This document shows positions 2,451 through 62,963 of a stretch of 64,000 nt of DNA, in pieces (position 1 is the stretch's first letter; every line of letters starts with the position of its first letter). The stretch covers positions 1 through 64,000 of the forward strand of contig JAPTJF010000187.1 of the NCBI GenBank assembly GCA_029339195.1, read 5' to 3'. The stretch is from Micractinium sp. NFX-FRZ. Its lineage: Eukaryota > Chlorophyta > Trebouxiophyceae > Chlorellales > Chlorellaceae. The position numbers were made by a program, and so were the translations under genes. Under the pieces are notes generated by a model. It was given only the letters and a program-made list of their open reading frames with translations. It was not told the origin of the DNA and ran no database searches.

Positions 2451-5400
2451 ATGGCTGGGCTTCAGAGCAAGACGCTGGCCGCCCTGCCAGCGCCCTCCGG
2501 TCGGCTCGGAAGGCAGCGCCATGGCGGAGCGGTTCGCCAGAAGCGCCCAGGGAGCTGCCCTGCAGGCCGCGGTGAGCGGGAGGAGCGGCGGCAGGCAGCA
2601 CCATGCGCTGGAGTCTATATCCGCTACTGGCCTGAGCGGGCCTGGCGTATAGGTGCATGCCACCCTCTTGCCCTGTCTAGCTGCCAACCGCGCACCACTC
2701 ACAGCTGCGTGCCCGCTTGTTTCTGGCCGTCGATCCGCAGGAGACGGTTCGCACGTCCAACCTGCGGCGGTCACAGCACAGCAGCAGCAAGGCGGCGGCA
2801 GCGGCAACGGCAACGGCGGCCGCCCGCCGCGCGTCTCCTTCCGCATCCCGCGCTTCAAAAGCAGCAGCTGGGATGCCAAGGAGGTGGGGGGTGGGCGCAG
2901 CGCTGACTCAGACTATCTCTCCGAGCTGGGTGCTGCGCAGCAGTACAACATCAATGTCACGTGAGCACCGAGGGACGGGAGGGAGGTTGCTGCTGAGCTG
3001 GCGGCCAACCCATCTGACCCCTCCACCGCCTGCCTGCGCCTGCGCCCGCTGGCGGCAAGCCGCACGCACGCAGCTGTCGCAGGCCGGCGCCCCGCCCGCC
3101 TGCATGCCAGGCTGTGCCTGCAGCTTGAGGCAGCAGAGCGGCAGCGGGCGCTGCACACAAACTTGCTGTCCTCCCAGCGTGTGGCTTTGCTCGCCACCCA
3201 CTCAGGTGGCTCACCCCAGCCCAGCCCAGGGCAGCCCAGGGCAGCCACACTGGCTCTCGTTCCCAAAATGTGCCCACCCATCCTGCGCCGCCCACCCAAT
3301 CCCGTACCCGCTCACCCTCCCCCTTTGCCCCCCTCCCCCCCGTCCTCATCCTCCTGCTGCTGCCCAACTGCGCAGCCACGGCCAGCGCGCCGGCATGATA
3401 GACACACTCTTCACTGGCAACGTGCTGGGACACATGACGGACATCGCAGGTGGGCGGTGGTGGTACCTGGTGGCCTTGCTGGCGGCAGGGGGATTCTCGG
3501 GAGGTGGGTGGTGCGCCGGTGGCGCGCCGGCCCATTGGTGCAATGCGACATTGCAAGAGGGATGTGCGGAAAGCAGAGCTGGGAGTGCGGGGCGAGACCA
3601 TGGGAGGAGCGGGGAGGTGCGCAGCGCCACGCCTGGGTGGGCTGGAGGTGGAGGTGCAGCTGCTGCGCCGGCGGCGGCGGCGTTTGGCCAGTCTCACCAT
3701 GGGTCCCGCCTCTGGAGCTTGCCGACCTCCCTTACGCTTCTGCACTCACAGCGAACACGGACCTGGCATTCAACCCATTACGCCTGCCTGCTGCGGCGGC
3801 CTGCCATGACATGCTCTGTTGCCCAGCCCTGCCCCTGGCCTGGCCTCTGGTCTGCCCCCTCTGCCCTGCTGCAGACGGCAGCCTGCGCGGCTACGAGTTC
3901 CGAAGCTTCAATAACATTGTTGGTGATTACTACATTGCACCCAGGTGGGCGGTAGCCTCGGTTTCCTTGTGTTGGCTCGTTTGCATTGGTGCCCTCTTGT
4001 TCTGGTTGATTTCGCGCTTGCGGCGGCACTGTGGGCCGCAGTGCTGCATCGCTCCCAGGTCGGTGGGTGCTCATCAGTGTGTGTGTCACCCAGTGTCTGG
4101 AGGCATTCAGCTGGGCAATGCTGCAGCAATGCTGCAGCAGGCTGGGACAGGCAGGCGTCCACTCATCTGCACCCCTGCTGCTTCCGCCAAGCCCTCACAG
4201 CAGGCAGATCACACATGCCTTGCACTGCCTCGCCCCGTCGCAATACCAGGCTGCCTGTAAGCTTTGGAGGCACCCTTCAACCCTTTGCTGCCGCCGCAGG
4301 TTCCTGGAAAAGGTGGCGCTCCACATTGCCAAGGTGAGGGAGAGCGGGTGTGGCGGGATCGGTGGTGTGAGGAGGAGGGGGGGATGCGCGGTGCACGCGA
4401 TCGAGACACTCCACGCAAGTTTGCCTGCCCACGTGCCCGTCTGTAACCGCCCTTGGCCCTCACCATGCTGTCGACAGAACCACCTGACTCCAGCTCCGCT
4501 CACTCACTCACCTCCCAGCCTGGCTACCTGCCTGCCTGCCTGCCTGCCTGCACCTGTTGCACATTCCCGCAGATGATTTTTCTTCTTCTGACATGGCCGC
4601 ATGCCACCCTGGGGCATGAAGTGCCCCCTCACCTACTGTGCCCACCTGCCCACCCTCCCTCCCTTGCGTGCCCTTCCCCCCTGCAGAACTTCTTGATTGA
4701 CGCGGGCGCGTTTGACGCGGGCATGCGGTGCCCCCTCATTCTGGGCATCTGGGGGGGCAAGGGGCAGGGCAAGAGCTTCCAGACCGAGCTGTGCTTCAAG
4801 AAGCTGGGGTGAGTGGGAGGGGAGCTGTCAATGGGGTCTGTCTAATCAAGGGGGTTGTAGTACAAGCCGCTTGAGAGCTGAAGCACAACGGGGAGGCAAC
4901 CCCCCACCCAACTCCCCTCAGCTGCACTGCGCCCAGTCTTGTTCCCGCAGGACTGCCGTGCCTGCTGGGGGCCTGGATCGTGCTGCATTCTGTTGCCGAC
5001 CATGGATTCTTTGGTGCTCCTGCCACCTCCTCCCTTGTGTCACAGGGTGGAGCCAGTTATCATCCGTGTGTGCTTGCACTCCTGCCATCGTCTCCTCCCT
5101 TGTGTTATCTCCCCCCTGCTGCCACAGGGTGGAGCCGGTGACCAATTTTGTGCTTTTCACTCCTGCCGTCTCCCTCCCTGCTGCCACAGGGTGGAGCCGG
5201 TGCTCATCCATGTGCTTTGCACTCCTGCCACCCCCTCCCTTGTGTCACAGGGTGGAGCCTGTGATCATGTCGGCGGGGGAGCTGGAGCACGAGTGGGCGG
5301 GCACACCCGGCAAGCTCATCCGGGAGCGGTACAGGTGCGTGGGGCGGGCGGCGGTGCGTGCATGCGATGGGATGCGGGCAGCGGGCAGGTGCACGGCCGT

Positions 5401-8400
5401 GCGTGCGTGCGTGCACAGAAATGCTGGACGCCGGCGGGAGGCAGGGCCGGCGGGCACTCCTGCCCCTGCATTCCTGCCCCTGCAGTGCACACCCGCGCTG
5501 TGCATGCTCCCATCGCAGCAGCCGGCCAGCTCGCAGCAACCGCCCAGTGCCGAGCAGCCCCTGCGCTGCCATGCCCACCTCCGCCCTCCCGCCCTGCTGC
5601 CCCCACCCTCCCTCCCCATGACCCCCCGGTTGCAGGCGGGCCGCCGAGGTGAGCAAGGTGCACGGCAAGCTGAGCTGCCTGATGATCAATGACCTGGATG
5701 CCGGCATCGGGCACTTTGAGAACACCCAGGTGGGCCATCACACCTGCGGCACTGTGGCCGCCTGGCACTGCCACTGCCTCGACCTCCCGGCTGCAATGAG
5801 CCCCAATTCCTCCCCTCCCCACCCCACCCCCTCGATAACCCCCAGCCATCTCCCCTCTCTTCCACCCCGCCTGCTGTGCAGATCACGGTGAACAACCAGA
5901 TGGTGGTGGGCACGCTGATGAACCTGTGTGACAACCCTAACCTCTCTCCTCCCCTCACCCTCCCTTCCCTTCATTCCACCCCGCCTGCTGTGCAGATCAC
6001 GGTGAACAACCAGATGGTGGTGGGCACCCTGATGAACCTGTGCGACAACCCCAACCGCGTCTCCATCGGCCAGGGCTGGATGGAGGACGACGTCATCCGC
6101 CGCATCCCAATCATCGTCACCGGTGGGTGGGGCAGGGAACTCGCTCGACCACACTCCCTCCCTTTGTGGGCAGGTTGGGGCTGCTTACATGTCGACCTGG
6201 CAGGTCAGGGTTGGGTTGGGGAGGCCTGGGTGGGGCTGGTGCATGGTGGGGCGGGTTGTGCCATGTGCAGTGCGTTGTGGGGTGGCACAGGGTGGGGTGG
6301 GCTGGATGGAGGACGGCATCACCCGCCGCATCCCAATCATCGTCGTGGGTGGGTGGGGGCGCCCTTGTGTGCAAGGCCATGCATCAGGGCAGGGCAGGGT
6401 TGGGTTGGGGAGGGCGGGTGGGCTGGGGGCGGCGTGATGGGCTGCGGGTGTCGCGCCGTGTGCAATGCATCCTGGGGTGGCAGGCAGGTAAAGGTGTGCT
6501 GGTTGGTGGATGCCGCTCCTCACCTGTCGCAGCCGCAGCGCTTTCCCATGCCACCGCCTCGCCCCAACAAGCCGCCCCAGCTGCACCCCGCCCGCCCTGC
6601 CCGCAGGCAACGACTTCTCCACCATCTTTGCGCCTCTCGTGCGCGACGGACGCATGGAGAAGGTGAGAGGCAGCTGCCTTGCCTTGGGTGCGCCCGCAGG
6701 CCCGCAGCGCTGGCTTGTCCCGCTGCTGTGCCCGCTGCTGCCTTCACTCCCCTGCGGCGGACCCTCAGTTTGCTGCCTTTGCCGCCCACCTCTCTCACGC
6801 TCACCGCCTCTTCCCTCCCTCCCTTGCTCCTGGGCTTCCCCCTTCCCATGCTGCAGTTTTATTGGGACCCTACTGAGGACGACCTGGTTGGGATTCTGCA
6901 CATGGTGAGCAACTGCTTGTGGGGGCACAGGGGCTGGGAGAGTGAGGGGTCTTGGGGCTGGGCTGGGGCTCCGAAGCCCAGGGCGGGCTAAGGAGGGTCT
7001 GGGTGTGTGTGCGAGGAAGATGGCCTGGGCGAGACCAACGCGCATGTATTTTCATCTCTTCCACGTCTGTTCACCCTCCGTGTTGTGGCCTCCCCTCCTC
7101 CCCCAGATGTACAAGGACGACGGGCTGAGCGAGAGCGACATGGCCCTGCTGCTGCGCGCCTTCCCCGGCCAGACGCTCGACTTCTTCGGAGCGCTTCGGT
7201 GAGGGGTGGCAGGCAGCAGGCACAAACAAAGAGACGAGCGGTCGTGTGTCTTGCTTTGCATGCACCTGCATACAGGCTGGCAAGGGGAGGGGACACTTGC
7301 TGTGGTGAGGGAGGTGAAGATGGGTGGGCCAGCGCATGAGGGGGAGGGGAGCTCGTCCCCAGGGGAGGCCACGCAAGCTGTGCTGCCTGCACCACAGCCG
7401 GCTGCCTGCCTTGTCCCTCACCTCCCCTGCCCGCCCGCCCTTGGCCCCCCTGCAAGCCCCCCATCTGAACCGGCACTGCCGGCAGTGTTCATTTGACCTG
7501 CCTCTTACCCGGTTCCCGGTCCGTATGATCCCTCGCCCCGTTGCCTCCCGCAGGGCTCCTACATACGGCCCGCGCTTCGACTCTTGCCTCTTGCACTGTT
7601 CCGGTGTACTGTGCCTTACATAGTTCCCATCGCCCTGCCCCTGTGCCTCCCGCAGTGCCTCCACGTACGACAACCAGATCCGGGACTGGATCAAGAAGGA
7701 TGTGATCCAGGGAGAGTTTGTGGGTGAGTGGGCGGAAGCGAGTGTGTGTGCGTCAGGGCCGGGTGGTGGGACACGAAAGGGAGAAGGGTGCCAACACTGC
7801 CATGCTGTGCTAAGCCCTGCTGAGCCCTGCTGTGCATGCTGTGCCTGCCCCGCCTCCCCCCGCCGTGCAGAGGAGAACCAGAACATGGTGGAGCTGGGGC
7901 GGCGGCTGCTGCGTCAGGAGGGGCTGCCCAAGTTTGACCCTGTGGACCTCACCATGGCCATGCTCATGGACGAGGGTGAGCGCCTCCTGCTTCCTAGTCT
8001 GTTCATTGGCAATTTGCTCGTTCAGTGCACCTGCTTACGGCTTTTGGTCTGGGAGTTCGATGTTAAGCTTAGTTGCACACTTCAGCAACTTGCCACGAAT
8101 GTAAGTATAGACTTAGGTCTTCCCTTGCTTTCCTCCTGCAGGCCGCCGGCTGCAGGCTGAGCAGGACATGGTGAACAGCATGCGCCTGTCGGATGAGTAC
8201 CTGAAGAAGCAGAAGAAGTCGAGCCGCAGGTGGGCGCTGGCAGGGCTTTGCTGAGTGGGGCGTGTTTGTGTGGTACAGTGTGTAGGATGGTTGCACGGTG
8301 GGCTCTGAATGGGGTGTATGGTGTGGTGGTTTGTAGGATGTGTTGTCCTTGTGTCTGAACAAGTGGGGACGCATGTGTTGAATGCTGTGCAGCGAGGCAG

Positions 8401-8666
8401 GCAGGGGCAGCTTGCATGAAGCTGGCACATATGTGATGATGCTCCGATCCAGCCAATAGGGGGCAAGCCATGCGGATAGCCTGCGCCTCGACTCCCCTCA
8501 TGTCTCACTCTCAATACTGTGGGGCGAGGCAGGCATGGGCAGCTGGCAGGCATGTGCTGGTGCTGCCATCAAGTGCCGGCGGGCAAGCAATGCTGGTTGC
8601 CTGCGCCCTGACACCCCATGTTCCATTTTACAACCCCTGCGCAGCATGATTGGCCTGAGCGGATGA
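2451..8666 (+). CDS. Rubisco-activase-like AAA+ protein
   Basis: Sixteen exons join in frame to 474 residues: 2451-2571, 2741-2960, 3376-3449, 3875-3944, 4300-4333, 4687-4808, 5251-5334, 5636-5729, 5996-6122, 6607-6662, 6857-6904, 7107-7198, 7656-7723, 7871-7975, 8142-8229, 8645-8666. The protein is an AAA+ ATPase of the Rubisco activase family. Walker A GGKGQGKS is at about residues 196-203, Walker B LMINDLDAG near 257-265, sensor-1 IIVTGND near 312-318 and the arginine-finger region RDGRMEK near 328-334. From memory, GELE, MINDLDAG, TVNNQMVVGTLMN and GALR-STYD fit the activase-like plant group (Arabidopsis At1g73110) better than canonical RCA; its substrate is not established. The first 45 residues are basic and Ser/Ala-rich, like a chloroplast transit peptide. 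The start at 2451 was chosen because it is the one whose phase fits exon 2; an ATG at 2521 does not. Several introns contain copies of their own exon edges. Confidence 0.88.
5037..5262 (+). repeat. Four tandem copies of an intron acceptor and exon start
   Basis: The real exon 7 begins at 5251 after TGTGTCACAG with GGTGGAGCCTGTGATCATG. The same acceptor plus GGTGGAGCC occurs upstream in the same intron with exon-like starts at 5046, 5128 and 5190, so the spacings are 82, 62 and 61 bp. Each copy also repeats part of the pyrimidine tract. Only the 5251 copy continues into the conserved activase sequence. Confidence 0.85.
5882..6055 (+). repeat. 114-bp in-frame partial exon duplication
   Basis: The acceptor and first 60 bases of exon 9 occur twice, with exon-like starts at 5882 and 5996. 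The offset is 114 bp, exactly 38 codons, and the DNA between the copies is open in the gene's frame. Both copies encode ITVNNQMVVGTLMNLCDNPN with only silent differences. Using the first acceptor would insert 38 residues in the AAA+ core; using the second gives the family-typical protein. Confidence 0.9.
6301..6350 (+). repeat. Intronic copy of an exon 3' end
   Basis: The end of exon 9 (from GCTGGATGGAGGACG at 6075 to its donor at 6123) is copied 226 bp downstream inside the following intron, with a few substitutions. The donor-like GTGGGT is kept. A second G-rich intron segment (around 6205 and 6393) is also duplicated nearby. Confidence 0.85.
7527..7567 (+). repeat. Intronic copy of acceptor and exon 13 start
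   Basis: TTGCCTCCCGCAG followed by GGCTCCTACATACG ends near 7567. It matches the real acceptor TGCCTCCCGCAG at 7655 and exon start TGCCTCCACGTACG, about 102 bp downstream. Confidence 0.75.
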
Positions 8667-9315: not shown

Positions 9316-12300
9316 ATGGGGGCGCCGGCTCCATCGCCCGGAGAAAGCTTGCAGGAGGACTACTTGCGAGCGCTCTTCGACGGTCTGGATGCCGATCGCA
9401 ACGGTAGACTGGAGGTGGCGGAGATACAGGTATTTAGGGCTCCCGCCGAAAGCCTCTCTGTCACCTGCGCACGCCCCGCGCCGCCCGTGCGTTTGTGAAG
9501 TCATCAACAAGCAGCCGCCGCACGGCGGAGGGGCACCGCGCTTCGCCGCAGCACCAGCACCACTGCCGCCACTGCCGCCATTCCACCCCCCGCCACTCCT
9601 TGCCCTGTACCTGTGCAGGCGGCGCTGCAGCATTTAGGCCTGCCCGCTGGCGCCGGCTACATGGGCAACCTGCTGTCGCAGTATGACCGGGACAAGGACC
9701 GGTCAATAACTTTTGAAGAGTTCAGCAGGTGGGCCCTCGGCAGGCGGTCCATTGACATGCATGTGATCAAACCAGATTGGCAGCGCTCCCATGTGTGTGT
9801 GCCAACGCCCCGCCTGCTTTGTGCCTTCACTGCCCTGCCGCCATCGCACCCGCCTGCCTCTTCCTGCAGATACGTCCAGTCGAAAGAGGCGCGCCTGCGG
9901 GCGGTGTTTGCCGCCATCGACGCAGACGGGGACGGGCAGCTGACGGCGGGGGAGGTGCACGCTGCGGCCAAGGGTACGCAACCCCGTTGCTGAACTGCTA
10001 CTAATTGCTGCTGCATGTCGCAGGCCCGTGCCATCTCACGCCTGTGCACATGCGCTGTGCTACATTTGGCTGCTTCCGCTTGCCTGCTGCAGTCCTGTGC
10101 CACCTTTAATGCAACCTGCTCTGCTTCCACACACCTGGCCCGCCTGCCCCTCATTCACCATTGCCTGCCTGTTGGCACCTGCAGCGCTATGGCAGCTGGC
10201 TGGTGCCTTTGGCGCAAACTCGGCGTCGGCTCTCAACCCCACGCCTTTGATCTAATTCGACCTGCAATCCGCCTCTCAACCCCACGCCTTTGAACTACTT
10301 CGACCTGCCATCTTCTTCTTCTCGCACCTGCAGCGCTGGGCCTGAGCGTGGCGCCGACAGAGGCGGAGCGCATGGTGGCGCTGCTGGACGCGGATGCCGA
10401 CGGGCGCATCGACTTGAAAGAGTTCCGGCGTTTCGTGGTGCTGCTGCCGGGTGCGGGTGGGCTGAGGCTGCACTTGGGTGAAGCGCGGGTGACCTGGCGG
10501 CGAGGGCGGCCAACTTCTGTTGCTGCCGCTGCGGCTGCTGCACCGGGACTGCCTGCTGCTGCAGCTGCTGCGCCTGCTGCGGCGGCACCCCGCCCCGCTT
10601 GCATAGCAGTTGAATCCTTGCAGCCGCTGCTACGCAATCTCCCTTGCATTTCACACCCCTCCCTGAGGGCGCCCAGGTGTTCAGACACTGTCCAGCTTGG
10701 GATGACCCCACCTCACCTCATGGCTGCACCACACTCTCACTCTCACCCACGCACGCATCACCGGCAACCTCCCCGCCCCCTGTGCAGGCGCCCAGGTGTC
10801 TCAGACGCTGATTGTGGCAGCCTGGGTGGACTCTGCCTCCTGGCTGCACAGCATGGAGTACCGGCTGGGGCACATGCCACCCAGCCAGCCACTGGTAAGC
10901 CGGCCGCCAGGCTGCTACTTGGAATTACATTGTGGCAGGCGTGCCTGGCCGCACGAGCGGCTGCTAGTGTGCCTGCTAGCTGCTGGCGTGGCTGGCACAC
11001 CCCATCGTGGGCATCACATTGAACCCAACCGGCTCCTTGCACCTGCGGCTGTGCAGGAGCGGCTGCTGGCGGGCGGCGTGGCGGGGGCGGTGTCGCGCAC
11101 TGCGGTGGCGCCCTTGGAGCGGTTACGTACTATTATGATGGCCGTGAGATTACTGCCACCTCCTAAGCTGATTCACGTTGTTGCATAGAGGCCGGGGTTG
11201 TGGATGTGCTTTGTGGGCCCCGCACAGCACCACGTGCTGCCAAGGGATGGTTGCAGTGGGAGCAGCGGCTGGGAGCAATCCATGGCAGCGGTTGGAGGTG
11301 GAAAACCGAGGTGTGGTGTATACGCATGTGCATCACAATATCACGGCAAGCTCTGCCCTACCGGCAGCAGAGTTGCATGAGTGGCTGGGGAAAACAAGGC
11401 CGCCGGGGACGGCCCAACCTGGGCACCGGCCATCCCTGCCTCACCTCGCCGCAGCCCTGACCCATTGCTATGCCGTGCCTGCCTGCGCCCCTCCCGCTCC
11501 CCACCCCCCGCCCTTCCTCCGACAGGACCGGAGTGCCACTCGGCTGGGCCCTGTCCTGCGCTCGATGTGGGCGGACGGCGGCATCCTGGGGCTGTTCAAA
11601 GGGAACCTGGCATCTGTGAGTTGGCGGGGCCTGTCTTGTGAGGCGGCGGGTGGGGTTACCAAGCAGTGCTGTCCAGCTTGCATGGAGCTTGCACTCGCAG
11701 GCACATGGGTCACATTGCCCCATGCAACCTTCCACACCCTGGTACGTTGGCAAGGGCGTCCCTCTCAGCAGTGCCAGCCTGGGCGCATGACCTCAAACTG
11801 TCCCACCTGCGTTCCCCGCTAACATGCATGCCTCCCCCCTCCCTTGCATGCCAGGTCATCAAGGGCTTCCCCAGCAGCGCCATCCAGTACGCCACGTATG
11901 ACGGGGCCAAGGAGGTCATGCAGAGCTGGAGCGGCAGGGGTGAGCATGTCAGGGCAGCAAGCCTGCCGCGTGAAAGGCGGCAGTACCACAGACGCGTGAA
12001 TGGAGGTTGAGGGTGACATATGTAGCTGGGTAGCTACTGTAGTGTCCATTTGTGGGTGTGGGTGTGGTGTGCATTGTATGTGTGTGTGTGTTTGTGGGGA
12101 GCTCGTTATACGTGCTCAATATCTATGGCATGCTCACGGGCACCGCTTGCTTCTGACCCAAACACGCCCCGCCCCGCTGCCTGCCCCGTAGGCGCGGGCG
12201 ACCTGAGCACGGTGCAGAAGATGGGGGCGGGGATGGTTGCGGGCGCGTCGGCCTGCTTGGCCACGTACCCACTTGAGGCGCTCAGGCAAGCTTCAAGGGA

Positions 12301-14296
12301 GCAAGCCTTTAGGGGGTGCGGCAGCGGCGGCAGTGACACCCTGCTTGCAGCCCTGCCACGTGCGCCGCCTTGCCACCACTCCACCCTGCCTGGCGGGGCA
12401 GGCAACCCGCATTCCTGCCGCCGGCACCTGCTGCTGGCAGCTGGCGAGCGCTGCCGGTAACTCCTGGATGCAACACCCACTCAACAACGCGTCACCGAGC
12501 AACCGGCCCGGTGCCTTCCCCTGATGCCCTGCCCTGCCCTGCAGAACCAACATATGCGTGTCTCAGGGCGGCGCCAAGGCAGGCTACCTGCCGACTCTGC
12601 GGGCCATGGTGGCAGGTGGGCAGGGACGCGCTATGCATTTCGTGCTTGTGCCCGTGAGCGTAGCATGCATGCGCTGCCTGTCAGTTGCGGGCAGCATGCA
12701 CAATGACTGCCTGCCCTACCTCGGAAACCCTTGACCCAGCACGCACCCACATCTTGCATGCCTGCAGAGCGGGGGCTGCCGGGGCTGTACCAGGGTCTGT
12801 CGGCGGGTCTGATCAAAGACTCGGCGGTCAACGCCCTGGGGTTTGCCAGCTACGAGGTGGGAGGGAGGGAGGAAGGGAGAGCAGGAGGGAGGGAAGACTG
12901 GCTGAGGGAGAGTGGAACTGTTGTGCAGTGGGCTGGTGGCAGTTCTGTGGCGGAGAGGGAAGCACTTCTGTAGTGCTGCCACCGCTGGCAGCTCTGCATC
13001 TCCCCGGGGCACACTCGCAGTCGGTGGGCCGCCTGCAGCTGCCAACCCTCTGCATGCTCTGGCTACCCCTCGTCTGCAAGCGCCCATCCACTGCCCCCCA
13101 CCCCCGCAGGCGCTGTGCACGGCTTACGCGCACTACACCGGCGAGCCTCCCAGCACGGGCACCAAGGGCGGGCTGGGCGGCGTGTCGGCCCTCCTGGTCA
13201 TGTCTGTCACCATGCCGCTCGAAAACGTGAGGAGGGGAGGGCGAGCGGGAGGCAGGTGGCCGGGCGGGGGGCAAGCGCATGTGTGAGCATGGTGGGGGGC
13301 ACCAGGCTTGCCTGCACATAGCTCACTCAACCTGGGTGCGTCTAGACAGCAGATCTGCTGCGTCAGTTCTGCCCCATGTCCGCCAATCTGCTGGAGGACC
13401 CACAACGCTGCCACTCCGTGGTCAAGCTGCTCATGCGCTGGGCCCGCTGCGCCAGCTGTGCATGCACGTCACGTGGTGGCTGCAGGCAACATGCGTGATG
13501 TGCCTGTGCATGTGCCCGGCTAAGTTGCCCGCATGCTGTGCATGCTGTGCCTGCTGTGCCCGCAGGTCATGCGGCGGCTGCAGGTGCAGGGGCGGCCGGG
13601 CTTCCCGCGCCTTTACACCGGCGCGCTGGACTGCACAATGCAGGTGCGCGAGTGGGTCTGTGTCGAGCTAGGGAGGAGCGTCAGCCCCCAGGGGCCAGCT
13701 TGAGGCTGTGTGGAGAGGCCCCTTGGGCAGGGCGCACTCAAAAGCGCCGAGAAGTGGGACCACGTGCCCGCCCGTCTCCCCCAACCCCAGGGGTTCTGCC
13801 TGCCTGCACCTCCCTCCCTCCCTGCCACCCTGAACAACGCCGCGCTCCCTCCCTCGGACCCTCTCTCATTTCCCTCCCTGCAGATGCTGCGGCAGGAGGG
13901 GGTGGCCAGCTTCTGGCGGGGCAGCCTGTCCTCCTTTGCCAAGGTGGCACCCTCCATCGCAGCCACACGGTGCGCACAACGGGGCGCCTGCCTGCACCGC
14001 GCTGGTCGCCGCAGTGCTGCCTGTGCTATGTTTCATCCCAGGGGGAGGCATTTTCCTGTGGTGAGATTTCTCCAACTGCCTGTGCCCCAGCTTCCTCCCA
14101 GCTACCTGTACAATCCCTCGTCACGAGGGCTCTGCCGGCCTGTGTGCACGCTGGCATACCCATGTGCAGCCACCCTTATCCCCATCCCGGGATCTGGACC
14201 CGCCCCTGTCCCTTGTGCAGGTTGCTGTACGAAACAATTGTCGAGCTGCGAGGCATAGGAGGGGTGCGGCGGTACCGCACAGACGCCGGCGGCTAG
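9316..14296 (+). CDS. Calcium-regulated mitochondrial carrier (ATP-Mg/Pi type)
   Basis: Fifteen exons join in frame to 474 residues: 9316-9429, 9619-9728, 9870-9973, 10334-10450, 10788-10894, 11057-11143, 11526-11615, 11855-11939, 12192-12285, 12545-12615, 12768-12856, 13110-13226, 13566-13643, 13884-13969, 14221-14296. The N-terminal half has four canonical EF-hand loops: DADRNGRLE, DRDKDRSIT, DADGDGQLT and DADADGRID. The C-terminal half has three mitochondrial-carrier repeats with PLERLR, PLEALR and PLENVM at the signature positions. This architecture is that of calcium-dependent ATP-Mg/phosphate carriers (SCaMC/APC) of the inner mitochondrial membrane; the substrate is inferred from the family. 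The third signature lacks the usual K/R at position 6 (Met, followed by two Arg). The intron after 12285 starts with GC instead of GT. Two introns contain copies of the following exon's start. Confidence 0.9.
10181..10345 (+). repeat. Duplicated acceptor and internal 20-bp repeat in carrier intron
   Basis: The acceptor motif CACCTGCAGCGCT occurs near 10177-10188 and again at the real exon 4 junction at 10333. Between them TCTCAACCCCACGCCTTTGA is present twice (10231-10250 and 10274-10293), followed each time by a related TTCGACCTGC segment. Confidence 0.8.
10661..10702 (+). repeat. Intronic copy of exon 5 start
   Basis: GGCGCCCAGGTGT plus TCAGACACTG at 10668-10690 matches the real exon 5 edge at 10787 (GGCGCCCAGGTGTCTCAGACG), about 119 bp downstream. 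The copy has lost the CAG acceptor. Confidence 0.8.
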
Positions 14297-22472: not shown

Positions 22473-22560
22473 TCCTTGTATCGATTGTATAGGGGCCGCC
22501 CTTCCCTCCTTCGCTCTCAAGCAAACTGAGGTCGGGTTGGGAACAAAGATGCCGGGCGAT

Positions 22561-22565
22561 TTACA
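22561..22565 (-). terminator. TGTAA poly(A) signal of pseudouridine synthase gene
   Basis: TTACA on the plus strand reads TGTAA on the minus strand, 58 bp after the stop of the pseudouridine synthase gene. TGTAA is the usual green-algal polyadenylation signal. The SMC start codon lies only about 90 bp further on. Confidence 0.5.
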
Positions 22566-52035: not shown

Positions 52036-55000
52036 TCAGGAGGGGATGTACTCAAAGGGCTCGGGGGGCGGCGGCTCGTCGGCGCTGCCTGCCGCGGGCG
52101 CCACTGCCGCGGGCGCTGCCGCCGCCTCGCCGTCTGCGGGGGCAGCCGCCGCAGCCGCCGGGGCGGGTTTGTCCTCCTGGAACATGTACTCGGCCTCCCC
52201 TGCCTCGGGCTGGGTGTCCTTGAGCACCACAAAGCCTGCGGGGCGGTGGGTGGAGGAGAAGGCGAAGAGGCGGGGTGAGCTGTTTGAAAGCAGAGGGGAC
52301 ACGGGAGGGTGAAGGGGAGGCAGGCAGGCTGTTGCTGAGCAGCGCAAAAGGCTGCGGAAGGTACAGCAGCAGGCAGGCGCGAGCAGCGCACACCAGGCAA
52401 GAGCGGCAGACAAAGAAAAGGGCATGCAGAGTGAGAGCATCAGGCACAGACAGGGTGGCAGGCAGAGAGAGGCAGTGGAAGACAGAGCGGAAGCGGGGCG
52501 GCATTTCTCACCAGAGGTGGCGGGACGGATGGGCACAAACCGCTGGCCCTCCGGGAAGGAGATGAACCTGCGCTGAGCTGGCGCCACGCGGATGGGGTTG
52601 TCCACTGCACACGACAGGAGGGAGGTGTATTGAGAGCAGGGCCGAGGGGGTTGATATTTTGACGGGCTGGGTGCGGTGAGGGGATTGAAGGGGGAACGGG
52701 GGTCCCCTCCCCATGTCCACACTGGAAATACCCACACCACACTCATTTTAGCTCAGCCCAAACACCCGCGAAGCTGCTGGGCTCGGGCTGCCAGGCGCGG
52801 CAGCGCTGCCGCTTCCTCGTCCTCCAGACTGACACCTCCGTCCCAACGAGTCCCGAGGTGCCAAGCCAGCTACCTCCCACCCTCCCCACCCACCGGTGAA
52901 GCTGCTGGGCACGGGATGCCAGGCGCTGCTGCCTCCCCATCTTGCCGACTGACACCTCCCCCTGTCATGTCCCGCAGAACTTGCATGAACCGCCCCCACC
53001 CTCCCCACCCACCGGTAAAGCTGCTGGGCTCGGGCTCAGGCGCCGCCGCCTTCTCCCCCACCTCCTCCTTCTTCTCCCCGCCCTCAGCCGCCGCCGCGCC
53101 CGCCTCGCCGCCAGCCGCGCCAGCCGCCGCCGGCGCATCCTCCTCCATCGCCTGTGCGTCGCCCGCGGCTGCCGCCTCGCCGCTGGGGCCCGCTGCTGCC
53201 GCGTCCTTGGCCTTCTTGGCGGCGCGGGCCTTGGCGCGGGCCGTGGTGGAAAGCACGGCGGTGGGCACCTGCAAGTGGGAAGGGTGTGGCGGGGCACACT
53301 TCAAATTTTTCCTTAGGGGGACCCGAAGTCCGGGGGCGGGCCGCTCTGGCAGCCCTCCTGGAGCATAGATTCGGACCATAGGCCCTATCAAACATGTTTT
53401 CAAGCTCCAGGGCCCTCTCGGGGCGGGCCGCAAGCCCCGCGGCATGTTGGCCGGGCCGCTGGGACGGCCGGAGCCGGGCTCTTTGCTTTGCTTGAGGTCC
53501 AAATGCATGCCGGGAGTCCTTTGAACCGCGCAGCGGTTCGAAAAGAGCATACTCCTGGGCAGGCATGTGCTCGGGATGTCCCGCGCCTCTCTTTCAAGTC
53601 GTCCGCACCCTCCCATACCATTTGGTTTTGCGATAGAAACACCCCGAAAGGGGCGGAAGCCTCCCCAGTTCTAGTCCTGACTGCCGCCGGCCGCCGCCGC
53701 CACCGCCGCTGGCAGGCGGCGGCAGCGGCTGGGCTGACGGCAGCAGCACCAACTACAGAGGCAGTGTCAGCCAACAGTACCAGAAACCCCACGGGTCGTC
53801 TGCGGCCGCTGCAGGCTGCGCAGCACATTCTGGTCCAGCCCTTGCAACGCGCTCTGGGCTGCCGCTCGCAGCGCCCCGACGGCAGAGGCGCCTCGGCCGC
53901 CAGCCCGACGGCGCGGGCATCGGCAGACTCGCTGGGCTAATCCCGCCGGCCTGGCATGCGCTTCCCCATGCCCTGCATTCCTGAGACTCCAAGCAGTGAG
54001 TGGGGAGTTCAGGGCAGCAAGTATGCGGCCCCCACCAGCAGGCGGCTGGCTGGGTGCAGGCGCGCGCCGGCGGGGCACCCGCCGTCGCCCGCGGCAGTGC
54101 TGCAGCGTCTTTGGCCGCGGCGCAGCTAGTGCCTTCTGCACTTGTATCGATATACAACAGACTGGGCGGGCCAGGGGCGCCCCAGCGGGCTCTCCCGGCG
54201 CGTTTGCCACTGGCCCGCGGGGGAGTTTCGCGCGCGCTCCAAGGGCGTTTTTGGGCGCCCGGCCGCTGGCAGCTGGCTCTCAGACACGTTTAGAAGGTTT
54301 TGTGCAACGCAAAACTGCCTCAAACAAGAGAGCGAAGGACCTCGGCAATGGGTTGGCCCGCACGGGCAGCCCCCGCACGAGTTTTATTGCAGAAACCGTA
54401 GCTAAGGGTATGTGAAGGGGAAAGTGAAAAGTCCGAGGGAGAATGGTGCAGAATTGAGACCGAGGGAAACTCCCTTCGGGTCCCCCTAAGGAAAAATTTG
54501 AAGTGGGGCAGGGGAGGGGCAGTGAGCCGGGTGCACTGTGGCGCCGGTGCCTTGGGCAGGGAAAGGAGAGGAGGAGGCACAGCCAGGGTCGACACCCCTT
54601 TGGGATCAACCCAGCCTGCCACACTGCCCGGAACAACGCCCAGCCGCCCCACCCCCACACCCCGCATGCGTCACACCTCCCCTGAGATCCCACACACCCA
54701 CCTTGCTGCCGCCCTTCTTCTCGTCCACCTTCACCGGCGGGGCGTAGGCAAACTGGGAGGGCCGGCAGTTGCTGACCACCTGCAGCTCGAGGGTGAGGGG
54801 AGGAGCATTCTTTGGGTATGTCCAGGTTGGTAACAAGCAGTTGCCGCTCAATGGCAGGTTTCAACAGCGAGCAAGAAGGGAGGTGGCTGGGCAGGGCAAG
54901 GTCGGCCAGGTGGCCCTCCCAGGCCCACCACTCAGCGCCCCTCTGCCCCCCCCTAGCCCCCCCCACACACCTGGAAGGCCTTGGGTGCCCGCAGGCTGGC

Positions 55001-58000
55001 GTCCACGCCAATCAGCGCGGTGGGTTGCACCGCCAGCGAGATGCAGTACGACAGCGGGTACCAGTACCAGTACTGCGTGAACAGGGCCAGGCCGATGACA
55101 GCAGTGCGCCTGCAGCGGAGGAGGATGTACAAGTGTGATACGTGCTGTGCGTGTGGTACGACAGGGGCCACAACACACCAGCAAGCGAGGAGGACTGCAA
55201 CAAGGCAGCCAGCACATGGACACGCAGCATTGCACACAGGAGCAAGGCAGCTCACAGAACCAGGCAACCATCTGGCATGGTCGGTGCAGGAGCGCAGGCC
55301 GGCAGCCCTGCCCAACAACCACAACTGCAGCGCTGGACAGCGCCAGCAGTGCACAGTGCCAGCACACATACACCACCCCAGCGCCCAGCACCCACCTGAA
55401 GTGCCCGGTGCGTGAGCGCAGGCCGATGGTGGCGTTGCGCCCGCCGGCATCCAGGATGCCCGCCGCCATGATGGCGCCCATGCGGGTCATGATCTGCACG
55501 ACATGAACGCTGTGGTCAGTGGGGCACCATGACAATGGCACAGCACAGCGCACCCAGCGAAGTTCAACATGCGACAGTGCCTGCCGCCCTGATGGCGCCC
55601 ATGCATGAGGGTCGTGACCTGCATGCTGTGGTTCCTGAAGAAGTGCACATTGGAAGCACCCACGTCTGCCCATTGCTGACATACAGCCGGTTGATGTGCT
55701 CCCAGCGCCAGCAACAACACCCCCTCCCCCTCCTCCCATGCATCCCCAGGGAACAAAACACATGCCACCCAACCCACCTCTGCCCCCTTGTTGCCGTACA
55801 GCCGGTTGATGTGCTCCCTCAGCGGTTTCACTCGCGACTCCTGCTGCCCCACCAGCACCAGCGCCAGCGCTATCAGCGCCCCCTGCTGCACAAAGTCCAC
55901 GCTGTCCCTGCAAGAGGAATGAATGAGCAGATGACGGTGGGCGGGTGAGACAAGCAACCAGGTGGGGAGGGGCGCAAAAGGGAGGAGTCCGCATTGGTGG
56001 ATGAGCTTGGGCACGCCGCACAAGGGGCACGCTACGCTGGCCCGGCACAGCGTCTCTCGCAGCTGCCCAACCACATGAGCACCGCAGGACACTGTGCTCA
56101 GCTGACCAGCCTGCCCAGCCCAGCCGCATGCCTCAGCGTCACGTGTCAACCTTGCACACAGCAGCCTGCCTTCACTGAGCTATACACTACCACACATCAA
56201 CTCACTTGACCAGCGGCTCCAGCAGCGCCACCGCCTCGCGCAGGCCGGTGCCGGCGCAGGCAATGCCCACAGCCATGGCGGCGCCGTAGCTGCGGGGGTG
56301 AGGTAGGGGGAAGGGAGGAGGGTTGCCGCATGTGGGTGCGTGCCTGTCTGGGGTGGGCATGCCGATGCCGGCACAGGCACAGCCATGCCACAGCCATGGC
56401 GGCGCCGAAGGCAGGCAGCGTGAGCGAGCATGCGGGGAGAAGGCATGCGGGGTGAAGGCATGCAGGCGGCAGGCAGGCAGAACATGAGGCCGGTGAGTGT
56501 ACGGCTCTCCCACGCCACCCCCTCTAGGCTCTCACAATACCACATGCTTCATTGCTATCCAACTGTGCACAGCCAGGCTCACCGCACGTGCGGGTTGTAC
56601 GACTCTGACAGCAGGCTGACAATCTTGGGGCACTGCTCCGGCGTGGAGGCCAGCACAAAGCCCAGGTTGGTGACGGCGGCACGGCGCACATCATTAGACA
56701 CGTCTGCACGGGATGCATGGTTCGGGGGGCATGGTTCAAGGTTTCAGGACAACAGGTCATGAAGGTGTGGCAGGTTGGGTCGAGAGGCGAGCGGGCAGGG
56801 GGGCAGCACACATCCCAGGTTGTGACGGTGTCGGCGGCACAGATCGCCCGACACATCTGCATGGTCCAGCAATGCAAGGGAGATGAGCAGCAGCCCAGCT
56901 GGAGAGAGGGGCTCCTGGCTGCCGCTTTCCGACCCTCCCATGAAGCGTCCTCCTGAACATGCACGGAGGAGCTCAGCTCATTGCAGCGCCCCCCACAACC
57001 CTGCATTGACAGCTCACCGGACACCGCAAAGTGCAGCAGCTTCTGGATGGCTGCGTTGTTGGAGGTGCCGCAGTAGGCGAGGCCCGTCACAAACATGCCG
57101 CCGTAGCGCAGGATGGGGTCCTGGGGGGAGCGCAGGGGAGGGGAGGGAAAGGAAGGGGTGGGTAAAGGCAGGTAGGAGGAGAGAAGTGGATTGAGGACTG
57201 ATGGGTGTGGGGTCGCACAACGCATGCCGCCGTAACTCGGGATGCGGTCACAGGCGGAATGGGTGGAGGGACAGGGTGAGTGGGGTGGGCGCAGTGGATA
57301 TGGCAACTTCAGCAGCAGTGGTGGGAGAATGATAGGGTAAGCACAGAGCGCACATCCGGTGATCGCAGGCGTACATGGCGTCTATCTCCATCACCCCCTC
57401 TACCTCCTCCCATGGCCCCACATTGCCACAAACAAACACAGGTGTGGGCAGCAGGCTCACCAGCTCATGCATCATCTGTCTCACCCATCCCCTTAGCCTG
57501 CCTTTTATCAACCAGCCTTTGATGCCTGCATTCCCGCAAACAAACACACGTGTGGCCACCAACCCACCAGCTCATGCGTCATCTGCTCAATCATCCCCTC
57601 TGCCGCCTCCTCCCTCCCGTACTGGATCAGCGCCAGGCCGACAGCCACGCCCCGGATGATCTTCTCGTGCTGCGGGGTGGGGATGGGTGGGAGGACAGTG
57701 GGGGGGAATGCCCAGAAAGGTTGGGTGCAAGTCCGGTGAGGTGGCAGGTGCGCAGTGGGAGGCGGGCAGGCACCCCTTGGGCAGGCAGCGTGCTGCACAG
57801 TGTGAGCATGAGGACAACTCCAAGCGAGCAAACGGGCACACCGGCCCTGAGCTTAATACACATGAACCCCACCTGCGTGTCGTGTGCATACGCCAGCAGC
57901 TCCGCCGCCTTCTCGGTGCCGCTGCCCGCGCACAGCAGGCCCAGGCTGAGGCCCGCCGCCTCGCCAGCCACTGCAGCAAGAGGAGGCAAGACAGAGGGTG

Positions 58001-61000
58001 GGTGCAGGGCAGAGGGGGAGCACAGAAGAATTATAGTGGCTGCTGCAAACTGTGGACGGTGTTCAGCAAAACAACGTCAGCTGCTTTCCGAGAGAAGTGC
58101 GAAACCCACACGCAGACAGAGTACGACCTGTTCACACTGTCGACGAGCCCAGCTGTCGTGGCTTCCTCCAACGCCTCGCCACCCCGCCCACGAATAGAGA
58201 GTTGGCACCCCACACACGAAAGGAAAGGACAGAAAGGACAGAAGAAGACGGTGATCAGCTCACCCGCGTTGTCCATGTACAGCACATTCTTCACATCCTC
58301 AAACGCCTCGTCATCCTGGGTGCCCAGAGCCGCAATGCCCAGGCCCAAGCACGCGCCGTGCTGGATGACCTGCGGGGCAGCAGGAGGGGCAATAGGGTTG
58401 GGTGCGGGTGGTGGGGGGTACGCACAGGGAATGGGTGCCCCCGGCGGCAGGTTGGAACATTTAGACGAGCGCCTGACCAATGTGTTGCCAACTGCAGAAC
58501 CCAACCAGACTCGCTCACTCACCCCCTTGCTCATATCCCCCTCTCAAACACGCGCCCTGTTTCTCTCACACTCCCGCGCACCTCGTGCTGCGTGGCCCGC
58601 AGGGAATCGAGCAGGAACTGGCGCACCCCCTGGCCGTGGCTGGTGTGGATCAAGCCCAGCGCATACAGCGCGCCGCCCTCTGCAGGGGTGGGGAGCAGCA
58701 GGCAGGCAGGCGTGGGTCGGCAGGGCCAAAGGGTGAGCATAGCCGGCGGTGGCAGGCAGGTGGGTGTGCATGCCACACCAGCATGCAAGCACGGGCATGG
58801 CGAACACGGCAGGAGACGCGGACTGGGAGCACGCTTTGGCAGGCAGCAGCCACGTGCAGCATGGCCGGGCACCCACACTGGCAAGCGCGCGGGCATATGC
58901 ATGCAGGCGGGCAGAGCAGGCGGTTGAGCAGGCGGGCAGCCCCCCGCAGGCAGCTGGCCCAGCAGGCGGGCCGGGGGAGGCGGGCGGGCGCACCGGAGAA
59001 GGGGCTGGGTGTGGAGCCTCCCGGTGCCGAGGGCAGGTAGGGTGCCATGATGGCGCGGCTCTTGCCCACGTTGCCGCGGTGGATCACGCCCAGGCCTGAG
59101 GGAGGGAGGGAGGAGGGAGGGGAGCGGGGTCAGGGTGACAGGCTCCTGGGAAAACAGCTCGGCAGGAGTGTGGCCATCCTCACTCAGCCCCCGCCCCCGC
59201 ATGGAGCTGTGTAAACCACAATACACACATGCGCGCTCCTCTTTTCCCCATGCAGACTGAAGACCCATCAAACGCTCAAAGCGCTGCTGCAACACTCACC
59301 CGCGGTGGCCGAGAACTTGGCCCAGTTGGTGGCCTTCTTCAGCCAGTCCAGGTTCTCCCGCAGGAAGGCGTCCACCGTGGTGCCGCAGTGCATGAGGGCG
59401 TTGGAGAAGACGGCGGCGGAGTGGCACACCGAGTTGCGGGGCTCCACCGTGGCGCGGATGTTCTTCAGGATCTGCGGGTGAGGTAAGGTGGAAAGAACGG
59501 GGAGAAAACACGAGGACAGTAAGAAAGAGGAAGAGGGGCTCCACGGTGCGCTAATGTTCTTCAGGATCTGCGCAAGAGGGGGAGGGGAGTGCAAAGAATG
59601 TGAGAACGGATGGTGCGGGGCTCCGCGGTGGCGCGGATGTTGTTCAGGATCTGCGCAGAGCCTAGAACCCCACCCCACATGCCCCTGCCGCTCAGCGTGG
59701 TCAACGTAAGCCAGGGCTGGCCCACCCCTCAACCCCACGTATCATACACACTCTTTACTAACCAACATGCGTCAATCAGGTTCACTGCCCCACCTGCAGG
59801 TCGGCATGGTTGAGGCGTGCCAGGAACTGGCGCTCCAGCTCGATGGGCACATCACCAGACAGCACCGTCTGCGGCAGTTCGGGGAAATGGGAAGGAAGCA
59901 TTGAATATAGGCATTGAGAGGGTGGCAGAGGAGCGAGGCATGAACTGGCGGTCCAGCTAAATAGGCACAATACTTGAGGCAGGTTGGGGGGCAGAGAAGG
60001 GATGCCGGGATGTTGGGGGTCCAGTGTTGAGGAAGGGAAGGGGCTGGGAGGTTGATTAATTGCCACGATGTGGGAGAACACCAGCAGAGACATGGGCGCT
60101 GCGCTCACGCCGCAGCATGCAGGCAAGTGGGGCGGCATGCCACAGTACTCCGAACCTGCTGCAACGCACCGCAGAACACCACAGCATAGCGGCCCAGCCC
60201 CCTTCCGACCTTCCCATCTCCCCTCTAATGCGCCCACCTTGAACAGCGCAAGGCGCTTCACAAACGGTGAGGCCTCCTCCTCTGCCGCCGCCGGCTCTGC
60301 AGCTGCAGCCGCAGCCCCTTCCGCAGGAGCGGCAGCAGCAGCCGGCTCATCTGTCTCCATCTGCTGCTCGCCCTCTGCAGCAGCAGCAGCAGCAGCAGGA
60401 GCGGCCCCTGCAGCACCAGCTGGCACCAGCGCATCCAGCTTGGCAGTGACCTGGCGCAGCGGCACAGCAGGGGAGGGTGGGGAGGTGAGCGGGCACATCA
60501 TAAGGTCGGTGCGTGGTGGGCAAGTGCCAAGGCTCGCAGGCAGGCAGACAGGCAGGCGGAACACCAACTGCCCAGCACACCTGCCCTTTGGCCCTCCCTC
60601 TATGAACATCATTGCCAGCCGCACGCAACTCGCTAGACCACCCACGCACTTCCCCAGCCATTCCTCTCATCAATTCTCACGCCCACCCTGCCCCACCCAC
60701 CCTGAGCACGAATGCCCTAATCAGCGCGCCCTACTCACCTTGAGCATGAATGCCTGCAGCTCCGAGTCCACCAGGTCGAAGGCAATCTGGTAGGCCAGCA
60801 GGGAGTCATCGTCGGAACCACTGCAGCACAGAATTGAGGGGACAGGCATTGTGAGAAAGGCAGCAGGCATCCAGGTGGCGGGCCAGGCTGGCGGCGGGCC
60901 AGGCAGCCGCCGCCCAGCAGCGCAAAAGCACCAGGCTCACCCCAGCAGGCGCGCCAGGATGGCTGCCACCTCATCGGCGTCGTCCAGGCTCATCAGGCAC

Positions 61001-62963
61001 TGGCAGATGGCGCCGTAGTCGGGCTGCGGCACCCCCTCATACAGCCGCACCACCAGGCGCAGCACCTGCCAGGTGTTAGGGAGGCACAGCAGAACATGCC
61101 CCGGGTTGGCAGGTGCAGAGGCAACAACAGCAGCAGCAGGCGGCAGCGGCACGCTATGCAGGTGCTAGGCAAGAGCAGGAACGGCTTGGCGCCTGCATCC
61201 AGCCCCAACCGCAACCCTGCCCCCGTCCCTCGCCCTGACCACATTGCCCCACCTGGCTGCAAAACTGGCAGCTGACACGCATGACAGCAGGAGCAGCAGC
61301 CCACCCTCGTGTCCACCTCTGCCCTCCTTGGCTGCAATATTGGCGGCTGACGAGCGTACCAGCAGCAGCATCCCAACCTTCTGCCCACCAACGCCCCACC
61401 TGGCTGCGGAATTGGCGGCTGACGAGCGTGACAGCAGCAGCAGCCCGCCCTCGTGCCCACCACCTCATCCCACCTGGCTGCGGAACTGGCGGCTGACCAG
61501 CAGGCGCTGGCTCACGTCCAGTGCATACTTGAGCGTCTTCTCTGGGTCTGCAGAGCGGGACGAGTACCAACAGGAAAGGGAGGCGCCTATCAGCAAAAAC
61601 TGCCATGCAACGGCGCACACTAGCGCATAGATCAGCGCGTGTTCTCAAGGTCTGCCCGCACCCTGCGCCAAGCACCGCCCAACCCGACACTGCCGCCCCT
61701 CGCCCACCCAACTCCACACGACACCCAGCGCTGCTCTGCGTGACTGCCTTCTCCACCCCATCCACATGCCTCGCATGCGCCTTCTGTTTTCAGCCCACAC
61801 TTGCCTAAACAACAGTGTCCCCACCAGAGCTGCCCATCACCTCCAACTGGCCCATGCGCCTCCCATCCCCCCCATGCCTAGCCGAGGGTACCCATACACC
61901 AGAGGCGCAGCTCACTGCCACTCACCGCTGCTCCCCGTGATTGCCTTCTCCAGCTGGTCCATGCGCCTGCACTCCAGCGCCACCCCCACCGCCTGCTCGT
62001 ACTGCCGGTCCGCGTGGCACCGCTCAAACAGGCGCTCCACAATGGAGACCAGGCGGGGATCCAGCGGGGCGTCGGAGGGGGACCGCCCCTCCGCCTCAGC
62101 CACGCGCAGGTCGACGTAGGTGTCGATGCAGCGGGCTGCGAGGGCAGGGTGGCAATCATAGGGAGCAGGGAAGGAGAGTGGGCAAGGGGCGGGAGCAGCG
62201 GCCAGGCGTTGAGACATGGGACAACGCGCAGGCGTGGGTGGGGGAGGGCGCAGTGGGCGGAGGCTGGCATACAAGGCAGCGGCCCATACATGCTGCATGT
62301 ATAGCGACGCCAATACCGCATTTGGCAGGCAGTGCCACGGCATCCGCCTTGCCGCCTGAAAGTCCTTGCTAGCTGGGCAGCCAGCCCCTTGCACACTCAA
62401 TACCCACCTAGGCGCCCACCCGCCCACTCACCCAGAATGGTCTGCACGTACTCGGAGGCTGAGCCCACATCAAAGAGGGAGCCAGCACCCAGGGCATAGG
62501 TCAGCGCATCATCCAAGTCACCCAAGTGGTAAAACACCTGGGAGCAAGAGGGTGGGAAAAAAAAAGGTCAAGCGGCAGCAGTGGCAGCACAACTGCCTCC
62601 CGCCCCGCTGCTGCTTCCTAACTGCGCCCTCCACCAGGCGGCCCCGCATCCCGGCGGGCTCCTACAGACTTCCTGAGGCCCCACCGACTACCCAAGGGCC
62701 CTGCAGTGCCGCCTGATCGCCGCGGGCCGCACCTTGGAGGCCACAAGGGCCGCGAGCTCGCGGTGCGAGAACTCTTCGTCCTCATACAGCGCCTCGATCG
62801 CCGCGATGGAGCTGGCAATCTGAAACCAGAAGTCGTGCACGCTCCTGTCCAGCTGCTGCAGGGCGTGCACTTTCAGGCTGTCGTCGTCCTCCTCCAGCAG
62901 CGCCAGCACCCCGGCAGCCGAGGTGAGGGGCAGTGCCGTGGGCTGCAGCACAGCCGTGGCCAT
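52036..62963 (-). CDS. RPN2: 26S proteasome regulatory subunit RPN2 (PSMD1)
   Basis: About 24 exons encode the largest non-ATPase subunit of the proteasome 19S base, a scaffold that docks RPN13 and contacts RPN10 and the ATPase ring. Exon 1 (62963-62733) starts [21 protein letters not shown]-terminal helical repeats follow ([36 protein letters not shown]). The toroidal PC-repeat domain is clear: [92 protein letters not shown] and [15 protein letters not shown]. Two low-complexity Ala/Glu-rich insertions interrupt it (around 60270-60430 and 53050-53230). The C-terminus [14 protein letters not shown] matches the known RPN13-binding tail. The last large intron holds a transposon-like element, and at least six introns carry copies of neighbouring exon edges. 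Confidence 0.93.
52765..53035 (-). repeat. Three tandem copies of an exon end and donor in RPN2
   Basis: The real exon end (codons PSSFT, donor GTGGGTGGGG) is near 53012-53030. Copies of GGTAAAGCTGCTGGGCTCGG (plus strand) recur with their GAAGCTGCTGGGC at about 52898 and 52770, spacings of roughly 120 and 128 bp. The middle copy keeps an intact donor. Confidence 0.88.
53297..53328 (+). repeat. Left terminal inverted repeat
   Basis: 32 bp, identical to the reverse complement of 54474-54505. On the minus strand it supplies CCCCCTAAGG about 40-55 nt before the RPN2 acceptor, a possible branch-point-like sequence. Confidence 0.88.
54474..54505 (-). repeat. Right terminal inverted repeat
   Basis: 32 bp, the exact reverse complement of 53297-53328, followed directly by GGGCA. 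Confidence 0.88.
55570..55705 (-). repeat. Copies of both flanking exon edges within one RPN2 intron
   Basis: On the minus strand the intron first repeats the previous exon's end ([12 protein letters not shown] at about 55700-55665, real [13 protein letters not shown]). It then repeats the next exon's start (codons like [11 protein letters not shown] at about 55620-55575, real [11 protein letters not shown] at 55494). Confidence 0.82.
56813..56870 (-). repeat. Intronic pre-copy of RPN2 exon start
   Basis: The real exon starting [15 protein letters not shown] at about 56705 is preceded in its intron by a degenerate copy at 56870-56813, with intact CAG and about 160 bp spacing. Confidence 0.78.
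57465..57500 (-). repeat. Copy of RPN2 exon end with donor
   Basis: The minus strand repeats codons for MTHEL followed by a GTGAG donor as MMHELVS, about 107 bp into the intron after the real exon end at about 57569. Confidence 0.8.
59540..59655 (-). repeat. Two pre-copies of RPN2 exon start [11 protein letters not shown]
   Basis: The real exon begins at about 59473 with [14 protein letters not shown]. Upstream in the same intron are [11 protein letters not shown] (near 59570) and [13 protein letters not shown] (near 59652), each after a CGCAG acceptor. Confidence 0.88.
61250..61440 (-). repeat. Three copies of RPN2 exon end LVSRQFRSQ with donor
   Basis: The real exon end (codons LVSRQFRSQ, then GTGGGA) is near 61473-61500. 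Further copies follow in the intron: LVSRQFRSQ (about 61430-61400), [12 protein letters not shown] (about 61360-61335) and VSCQFCSQ with GTGGGG (about 61285-61255). Spacing is about 70-80 bp. Confidence 0.88.

Follow-up and report, generated by a model that had tools for sequence, protein, structure and literature searches.

Why do so many introns in a single stretch of a green-algal genome contain degenerate copies of the splice junctions that bound them? The window analysed here, 64,000 nucleotides of Micractinium sp. NFX-FRZ (contig JAPTJF010000187.1, positions 1 to 64,000), had been described from its letters alone as carrying such exon-edge echoes in at least seven unrelated genes. To the window we added 290 kb of the same 66.07-Mb, 838-contig genome (354 kb in total), a non-random sample made up of a 50-kb block, a 40-kb block and one 10-kb stretch from each of 20 contigs (every tenth, C1 to C191). 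Genes were modelled ab initio, without RNA, by a self-trained hidden-Markov gene finder trained on the window and the 290 kb. It learned sharp splice sites (donor CAG/GTGAG, acceptor TGCAG/G) and in its final round returned 88 genes with 767 exons and 699 introns in the 354-kb sample. Only introns with both flanking exons were kept, 679 of the 699 (574 of 593 at an earlier stage). The first 40 and last 40 exon-only bases of each exon were then aligned to introns and counted as matching at a Smith-Waterman (SW) score of at least 80, while a stricter echo set comprised matches with blastn E <= 0.01 or SW >= 90. A blastn scan at 5/-4 scoring gave excess noise and was left out of all counts.

Of 574 exon starts, 55 found a match in the intron just upstream, and 52 of 574 exon ends found one in the intron just downstream (SW >= 80, earlier stage of the sample). 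The control counts for starts and ends, respectively, were 3/338 and 4/338 for the intron on the wrong side (exons of at least 80 nt), 17/2755 and 30/2755 for other introns of the same gene, 23/2870 and 19/2870 for introns of other genes, and 4/574 and 3/574 for shuffled introns; reverse-complement matches numbered 13/1148. Own-intron matches were about ten times commoner than controls, which lay near 1% for the wrong-side, other-intron and shuffled sets. At SW >= 100, 27 of 574 starts and 28 of 574 ends still matched, and every control set held three matches or fewer. The matches go with the adjacent junction, and the side-specific counts agree with the arrangement described from the letters alone, in which copies of an exon's start lie upstream with an acceptor and copies of its end lie downstream with a donor. 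In the enlarged sample, 107 of the 679 introns carried a total of 115 echoes at SW >= 80, where we estimate from the control rates that about 11 introns would do so by chance. The stricter set retained 75 of the 679 introns, and 32 of the 65 genes with at least four introns held an echo from it. These observations confirm that exon-edge echoes are real and that they reach beyond the window.

The same pairs emerge when sequence is compared with itself directly, with gene models set aside. When the window was compared with itself (E <= 1e-3), 25 direct pairs were near ones (<2 kb), against a single near inverted pair and a single far direct one; in five Markov-shuffled versions no pair appeared. 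Across 314 kb (E <= 0.01), 120 direct pairs lay within 600 bp, compared with 15 farther direct and two inverted pairs; the count for 354 kb was 126 near direct pairs versus four inverted. It is therefore extremely unlikely that faulty gene models, low complexity or assembly errors created the echoes. Such a reading could draw on the miscalling of some echoes as exons and on the G-rich or C-rich composition of intron ends, but it fits poorly with the raw self-scan and with composition-matched controls near 1%. The exon parts of echoes are also mostly 11–19% diverged, so they represent neither duplicated reads nor collapsed haplotypes.

Within the window, 18 of 122 usable introns in the trained models held 21 echoes of the stricter set, and 24 of the 122 held an echo at SW >= 80. 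Echoes were confirmed in the genes for the activase-like, carrier, purple acid phosphatase, S1-type and RPN2 proteins. Pfam backs the identification of a RuBisCO-activase-type AAA protein, an EF-hand mitochondrial carrier, a pseudouridine synthase, a purple acid phosphatase and RPN2. The S1-type protein found no match in the Pfam search and takes its name from the earlier sequence-only note; one of its homologues (P0002) is named Nucleic acid-OB-fold. Among named proteins, those nearest to one predicted product of the window are from Micractinium (54–61%). Six of the seven genes first named bear echoes at SW >= 80, the pseudouridine synthase weakly, and the seventh, which encodes a 67-residue protein with three introns, showed none at that threshold. 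None was found either, at SW >= 80, in the 13 introns of the gene at 34946–41033.

In the activase-like gene (forward strand), intron 4809–5250 holds acceptor echoes (repeats of about 62 bp and longer, within 5017–5268) of the junction at 5250 and the exon head 5251–5268. An acceptor echo of exon 5996–6122 at 5860–5949 copies 5974–6064 at an offset of 114; with 94.5% identity over 91 columns, it exceeds every other border-spanning case in the window in similarity. A donor echo at 6299–6358 copies the exon end and donor at 6073–6132 (90%, offset 226), with added intron-side homology between 6199–6239 and 6388–6426. These last two come on top of the 21 echoes tallied above, because the gene finder called 5882–5905 and part of 6271–6348 exons. 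Another of its intronic segments, 2965–3227, matches G000:C321:70845-71119 at 84% and is perhaps part of a longer dispersed repeat.

In the carrier gene (forward strand), a weak acceptor echo lies at about 10668 in intron 10451–10787 (offset 119, SW 91) and another at about 13467 in intron 13227–13565 (offset 98). A carrier intron segment, 10509–10591, has 16 genome matches at 79–88%, some side by side, and is either a repeat family or biased sequence. On the reverse strand, an SMC/ATPase-like gene (gene index 2), which adjoins the pseudouridine synthase and is named by the look of its protein alone, has an acceptor echo at about 15970 in intron 15862–16121 (offset 109, SW 116). The single echo of the pseudouridine synthase gene is a weak donor echo in intron 23868–24360 (reverse strand, offset 101, SW 89). 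The phosphatase gene (reverse strand) has donor echoes at 29281–29377, copying 29367–29457 (junction 29447), and at 31057–31130, copying 31154–31231 (junction 31179), and an acceptor echo at about 30455 in intron 30332–30727 (offset 124, SW 108). In the S1-type gene (forward strand), 42493–42555 copies exon bases 42655–42714, the match beginning 12 nt into the exon that follows junction 42642, and intron 42831–43616 holds a donor echo at about 42945 and an acceptor echo at about 43505. A weak hypothetical gene on the reverse strand carries a tandem array of four 115-bp units across a predicted acceptor (49600–50117).

The remaining cases belong to RPN2 (reverse strand). Donor echoes of junction 53012 lie in the part encoding the C-terminus (52757–53051), and intron 55494–55777 contains both a donor echo (55658–55703) and an acceptor echo (55578–55623) within the region 55457–55818. 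Acceptor echoes were also found at 56357–56410, copying the exon edge 56240–56289, at about 56856 in intron 56704–57017 (offset 153), and for junction 59471 at offsets of 96 and 179 (59435–59655). Donor echoes lie at 57421–57503, copying 57529–57608, and at about 61728 in intron 61548–61925 (offset 197), and junction 61473 has an array of them at offsets of 74, 147 and 221 (61222–61501).

The distance between an echo and its source is far from uniform. Offsets fell between 98 and 135 bp for 67 of the 115 echoes, clustering at about 115 bp, and between 200 and 240 bp for a further 12, a smaller cluster at about 220 bp. Compared with the duplication size of about 40–230 bp suggested from the window, offsets in the whole sample ran from 47 to 292 bp, with one at 705. 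Identical 12-mers likewise peaked at distances of about 100–130 and 220–240 bp in the exon-exon, exon-intron and intron-intron classes, a total driven in part by a few arrays. Tandem arrays with units of about 95–122 bp were also seen at L021:8820-9402 and at 16800–17280 of the C3 block (L022-L026), where the gene finder calls repeated short exons (mostly 33–39 nt, or 3 nt) separated by short introns; these are either real exon arrays or miscalled echo arrays.

Intron lengths indicate how much sequence each event added. The 26 echo introns in which the match ends at the junction had a median length of 335.5, a median offset of 121 and a median difference between the two of 217, compared with a median length of 220.5 for echo-free introns. 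Length minus offset in these 26 did not differ from the length of echo-free introns (KS p = 0.39), which fits the gain of a full unit, and the gain of the exon piece alone was rejected (Mann-Whitney p = 2e-4). The net gain per echo therefore appears to be one unit, as judged indirectly by length comparison within one genome. The median rose to 444 in the 18 introns whose intron-side matches were long, often because they were arrays. When the 53 echo introns are taken together, subtracting the offset from the length leaves a median of 241, somewhat above echo-free introns (Mann-Whitney p = 0.02), as expected if some of them contain several units.

These lengths bear on a rival process, in which repair of breaks within introns would have pasted in 25–55 nt of a nearby exon edge and duplicated the edge alone, by a switch of template for which the shared splice-site words CAG-GTG and TGCAG may have served as primers. 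Half of the echoes do end at the splice consensus, and of the 41 near pairs with the highest similarity (>=85%), 33 span no more than half their offset. We had earlier favoured this reading, and the intron lengths then weakened it: echo introns are too long, a full unit rather than about 45 nt having apparently been gained. Intron sequence is moreover included in the large window cases of highest similarity, and we now consider the copying of edges alone unlikely. The lengths also speak to the suggestion that echoes are traces of intron birth by tandem duplication. That route (the AGGT model) predicts an intron built of former exon sequence, with an offset equal to intron length, whereas only 8 of the 115 echoes had an offset within 12 nt of it, and those eight were weak (SW 80–88) or lay within runs of repeated mini-exons. 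Intron birth as the rule is not supported. The proposal that duplications crossing exon-intron borders enlarge existing introns fared better, since the side-specificity, the near-neutral decay described below and the one-unit length step all agree with it.

We therefore think it probable that short local duplications of about 115 bp, falling across exon-intron borders and leaving a spare junction that dies, have passively lengthened these introns. Duplications of about this size (mostly 70–160 bp) would arise in intron-bearing genes, most easily by fill-in and end joining at staggered DNA breaks. One that straddled a border would yield two copies of the splice site. The junction beside the intact exon would stay in use and the other copy would become dead intron sequence, leaving the protein unaltered and the intron longer by one unit, after which the dead copy would decay almost neutrally. 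Border duplications would be tolerated because the exon-side junction remains in use, and the dead copy would stay recognisable longer than a purely intronic duplication because selection holds the real exon edge. The data show side-specific copies of a preferred size, a length step of one unit and near-neutral decay; the break-repair step, the choice of junction and the passive retention are our inferences.

Mismatches between echoes and their exons were spread over codon positions at 95/916, 122/914 and 146/914 (0.104, 0.133 and 0.160; 2744 sites; echoes had to reach SW >= 90 and to score at least 34 in local alignment), and the same echoes contained 112 gap columns and five stop-making changes. 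There is little sign of coding constraint on the echo, decay being almost neutral, and the reading of echoes as coding or alternative exons was rejected on these mismatches, gaps and stops. Splice-site dinucleotides behave similarly: among same-intron rows, which are partly non-independent, 23 of 31 echo sites still had AG and 22 of 33 still had GT, as expected at about 15% divergence. A cruder mapping found AG at 23 of 51 echoes and GT at 26 of 58.

One pair of genes allows an echo to be followed over time. The tandem paralogues at L004 have a donor echo in common, at offsets of 107 and 109, which is therefore probably older than their split. The paralogues agree at 28 of 32 nt in the echo and 27 of 30 in the exon end, at 57 of 80 aligned nt (with 11 gap columns) in the filler between junction and echo, and at 25 of 47 in the stretch past the echo; their fourfold sites differ at 21 of 61, and blastn aligns 0–32% of each intron. 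Gene conversion between exon and echo was rejected in this one case, as we read the alignments: the exons differ at three sites, and the echoes fail to track both paralogue-specific states. A slower rate in the exon-like part than in the rest of the intron is what would be seen if selection kept echoes as decoy or regulatory splice sites. The L004 agreement points that way, as does the longer persistence of exon-like parts than of intron sides. Against it stand the loss of GT and AG at about the neutral pace and the nearly neutral codon-position pattern, and the L004 difference is small and comes from one paralogue example, so that we regard such selection as quite improbable. The activase paralogue at L031 (G000:C53:136500-139300), a second, diverged RuBisCO-activase-type gene, is too distant for dating echoes; one of its exons spans both sides of the window's intron 5730–5995, and that stretch has no near repeats.

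Direct repeats could also be target-site duplications from the insertion of short mobile elements (SINEs or introners) close to junctions. One intron-internal pair, at 15194–15327 of block C15, is indeed an element's direct repeat; the filler it encloses is one of a repeat family, with 39 further matches in the genome among 40 scored. By contrast, both of the exon-edge fillers searched in the genome (2 of 56) proved unique, and fillers match one another only over 13–28 nt. Because both searched fillers were unique, we dropped mobile elements as a general cause and consider them a very unlikely one. The short interspersed family from block C15 is SINE-like. It has an 85-nt core that starts CTAGTC and ends GGCATG (L028:5217-5301, block C15), followed in several copies by CACCAGACCATGAAA... 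(A-rich tail). Members were also found in L032-L039 (contigs C85, C7, C53, C355, C337, C648, C72 and C4); 40 matches, query included, were scored of 62–64 candidates, at 84–100%, and clear direct repeats of about 11–20 nt were present at three of nine copies viewed. Another short interspersed family (60–75 nt) is represented within an intron at L008:2457-2530, with 38 other matches at 83–96% and a 9-nt direct repeat at its ends.

Border-crossing duplication, the explanation we prefer, does not account for every detail in its plain tandem form, because similarity on the intron side is too often missing. Similarity runs out no more than 9 nt beyond the junction in 28 of 56 echoes, whereas simulations of duplication followed by neutral decay, under the same detection, gave 16–20% for ages from zero upward. 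The simulated age class closest in exon identity had 20% stopping at the junction and young ages 7%; values of 33–44% were reached only at ages with identities below those observed. Intron-side homology was significant in 21 of 93 rows (alignment of at least 20, offset 60–260, intron part of at least 25 nt), where a naive model expects 76–99%. Arrays are homologous over the whole unit and the large cases of highest similarity are partly so, while about half of the echoes showed no such homology. Simulated exon-side lengths matched those observed when duplications had to include at least 45 nt of intron, which might be what a working splice site needs.

Placement shows a similar remainder. Junction-type and intron-only loci were observed at 53:11, plus 15 loci of other kinds, and random placement would give 71:31 to 83:32 at older ages (about 2.3–2.6) and 157:209 to 187:186 at younger ages (0.75–1.0). 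Geometry and a constrained exon thus explain part, not all, of the junction bias. The rest might reflect intron ends, rich in G or C, that turn over faster, echoes that change more slowly, or a genuine effect of the boundary, and the single L004 case hints at a slowly changing echo. Pairs with both copies in intergenic DNA were rare, at 1 of 120 in 314 kb, where intergenic sequence makes up 19% of bases, and 1 of 126 (L020:7975-8090) in the larger sample, where it makes up 65 of 354 kb. Intergenic DNA also had no 12-mer distance peak at 80–180 bp. We take this deficit as a lead only, because intron-only pairs are likewise few. It is conceivable, if rather improbable, that a process measuring off about 115 bp operates only in transcribed, spliced regions and often ends at the splice consensus, with splicing or transcription intermediates, or the chromatin they set, shaping break repair and so driving intron growth in this lineage. 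The parts worth following up are the unit of about 115 bp, the intergenic poverty and the missing intron sides.

Intron lengthening is usually ascribed to transposons. Border-crossing duplications offer a countable alternative, present in about one intron in seven and each seemingly worth one unit. Because the exon serves as a reference copy against which the dead echo can be clocked, the rate and size of small duplications become measurable from a single genome. There is a practical caution as well, as our gene finder took two young-looking echoes for exons. In a search of the open-licence literature, nothing turned up that describes exon-edge echoes as widespread in a genome; of the older work, Gao and Lynch (2009) and Hellsten (2011) probably come closest to the subject. 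Single border-crossing cases are already known, and it is the abundance and the unit of about 115 bp that look new.

New introns are known to arise by tandem duplication (PMC3443670). In potato RdRp, as that case is described, a tandem duplication within the gene crosses one intron-exon border and inherits its splice signals (PMC4974935). The border crossing is shared with the echoes, but the potato event made a new intron, whereas here it would be an existing intron that lengthens and the extra junction that dies, and many introns are hit, preferentially by units of about 115 bp. In Daphnia, newly gained introns contain short direct repeats, which their authors read as staggered-break repair followed by passive lengthening, and 16.2% of established Daphnia introns have significant repeats (PMC4202315). 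Direct repeats inside introns are common to both systems; those that a Daphnia intron has in common with its adjacent exon are given as 4–12 bp, whereas ours are mostly 20–55 nt and spaced at about 115 bp. A plausible source is fill-in by CST/Pol alpha-primase at staggered breaks, which yields small tandem duplications without repeats or homology (PMC8355091). That work concerns mouse and human cells and overhangs of about 43–54 bp rather than an alga, and it is not known to tie the duplications to splice junctions. Introners, finally, are credited with mass changes in intron content, mainly in fast-evolving lineages such as green algae (PMC9860276). They form families of similar introns, whereas echoes are copies of their own gene, with tested fillers that are unique or alike over short stretches only.
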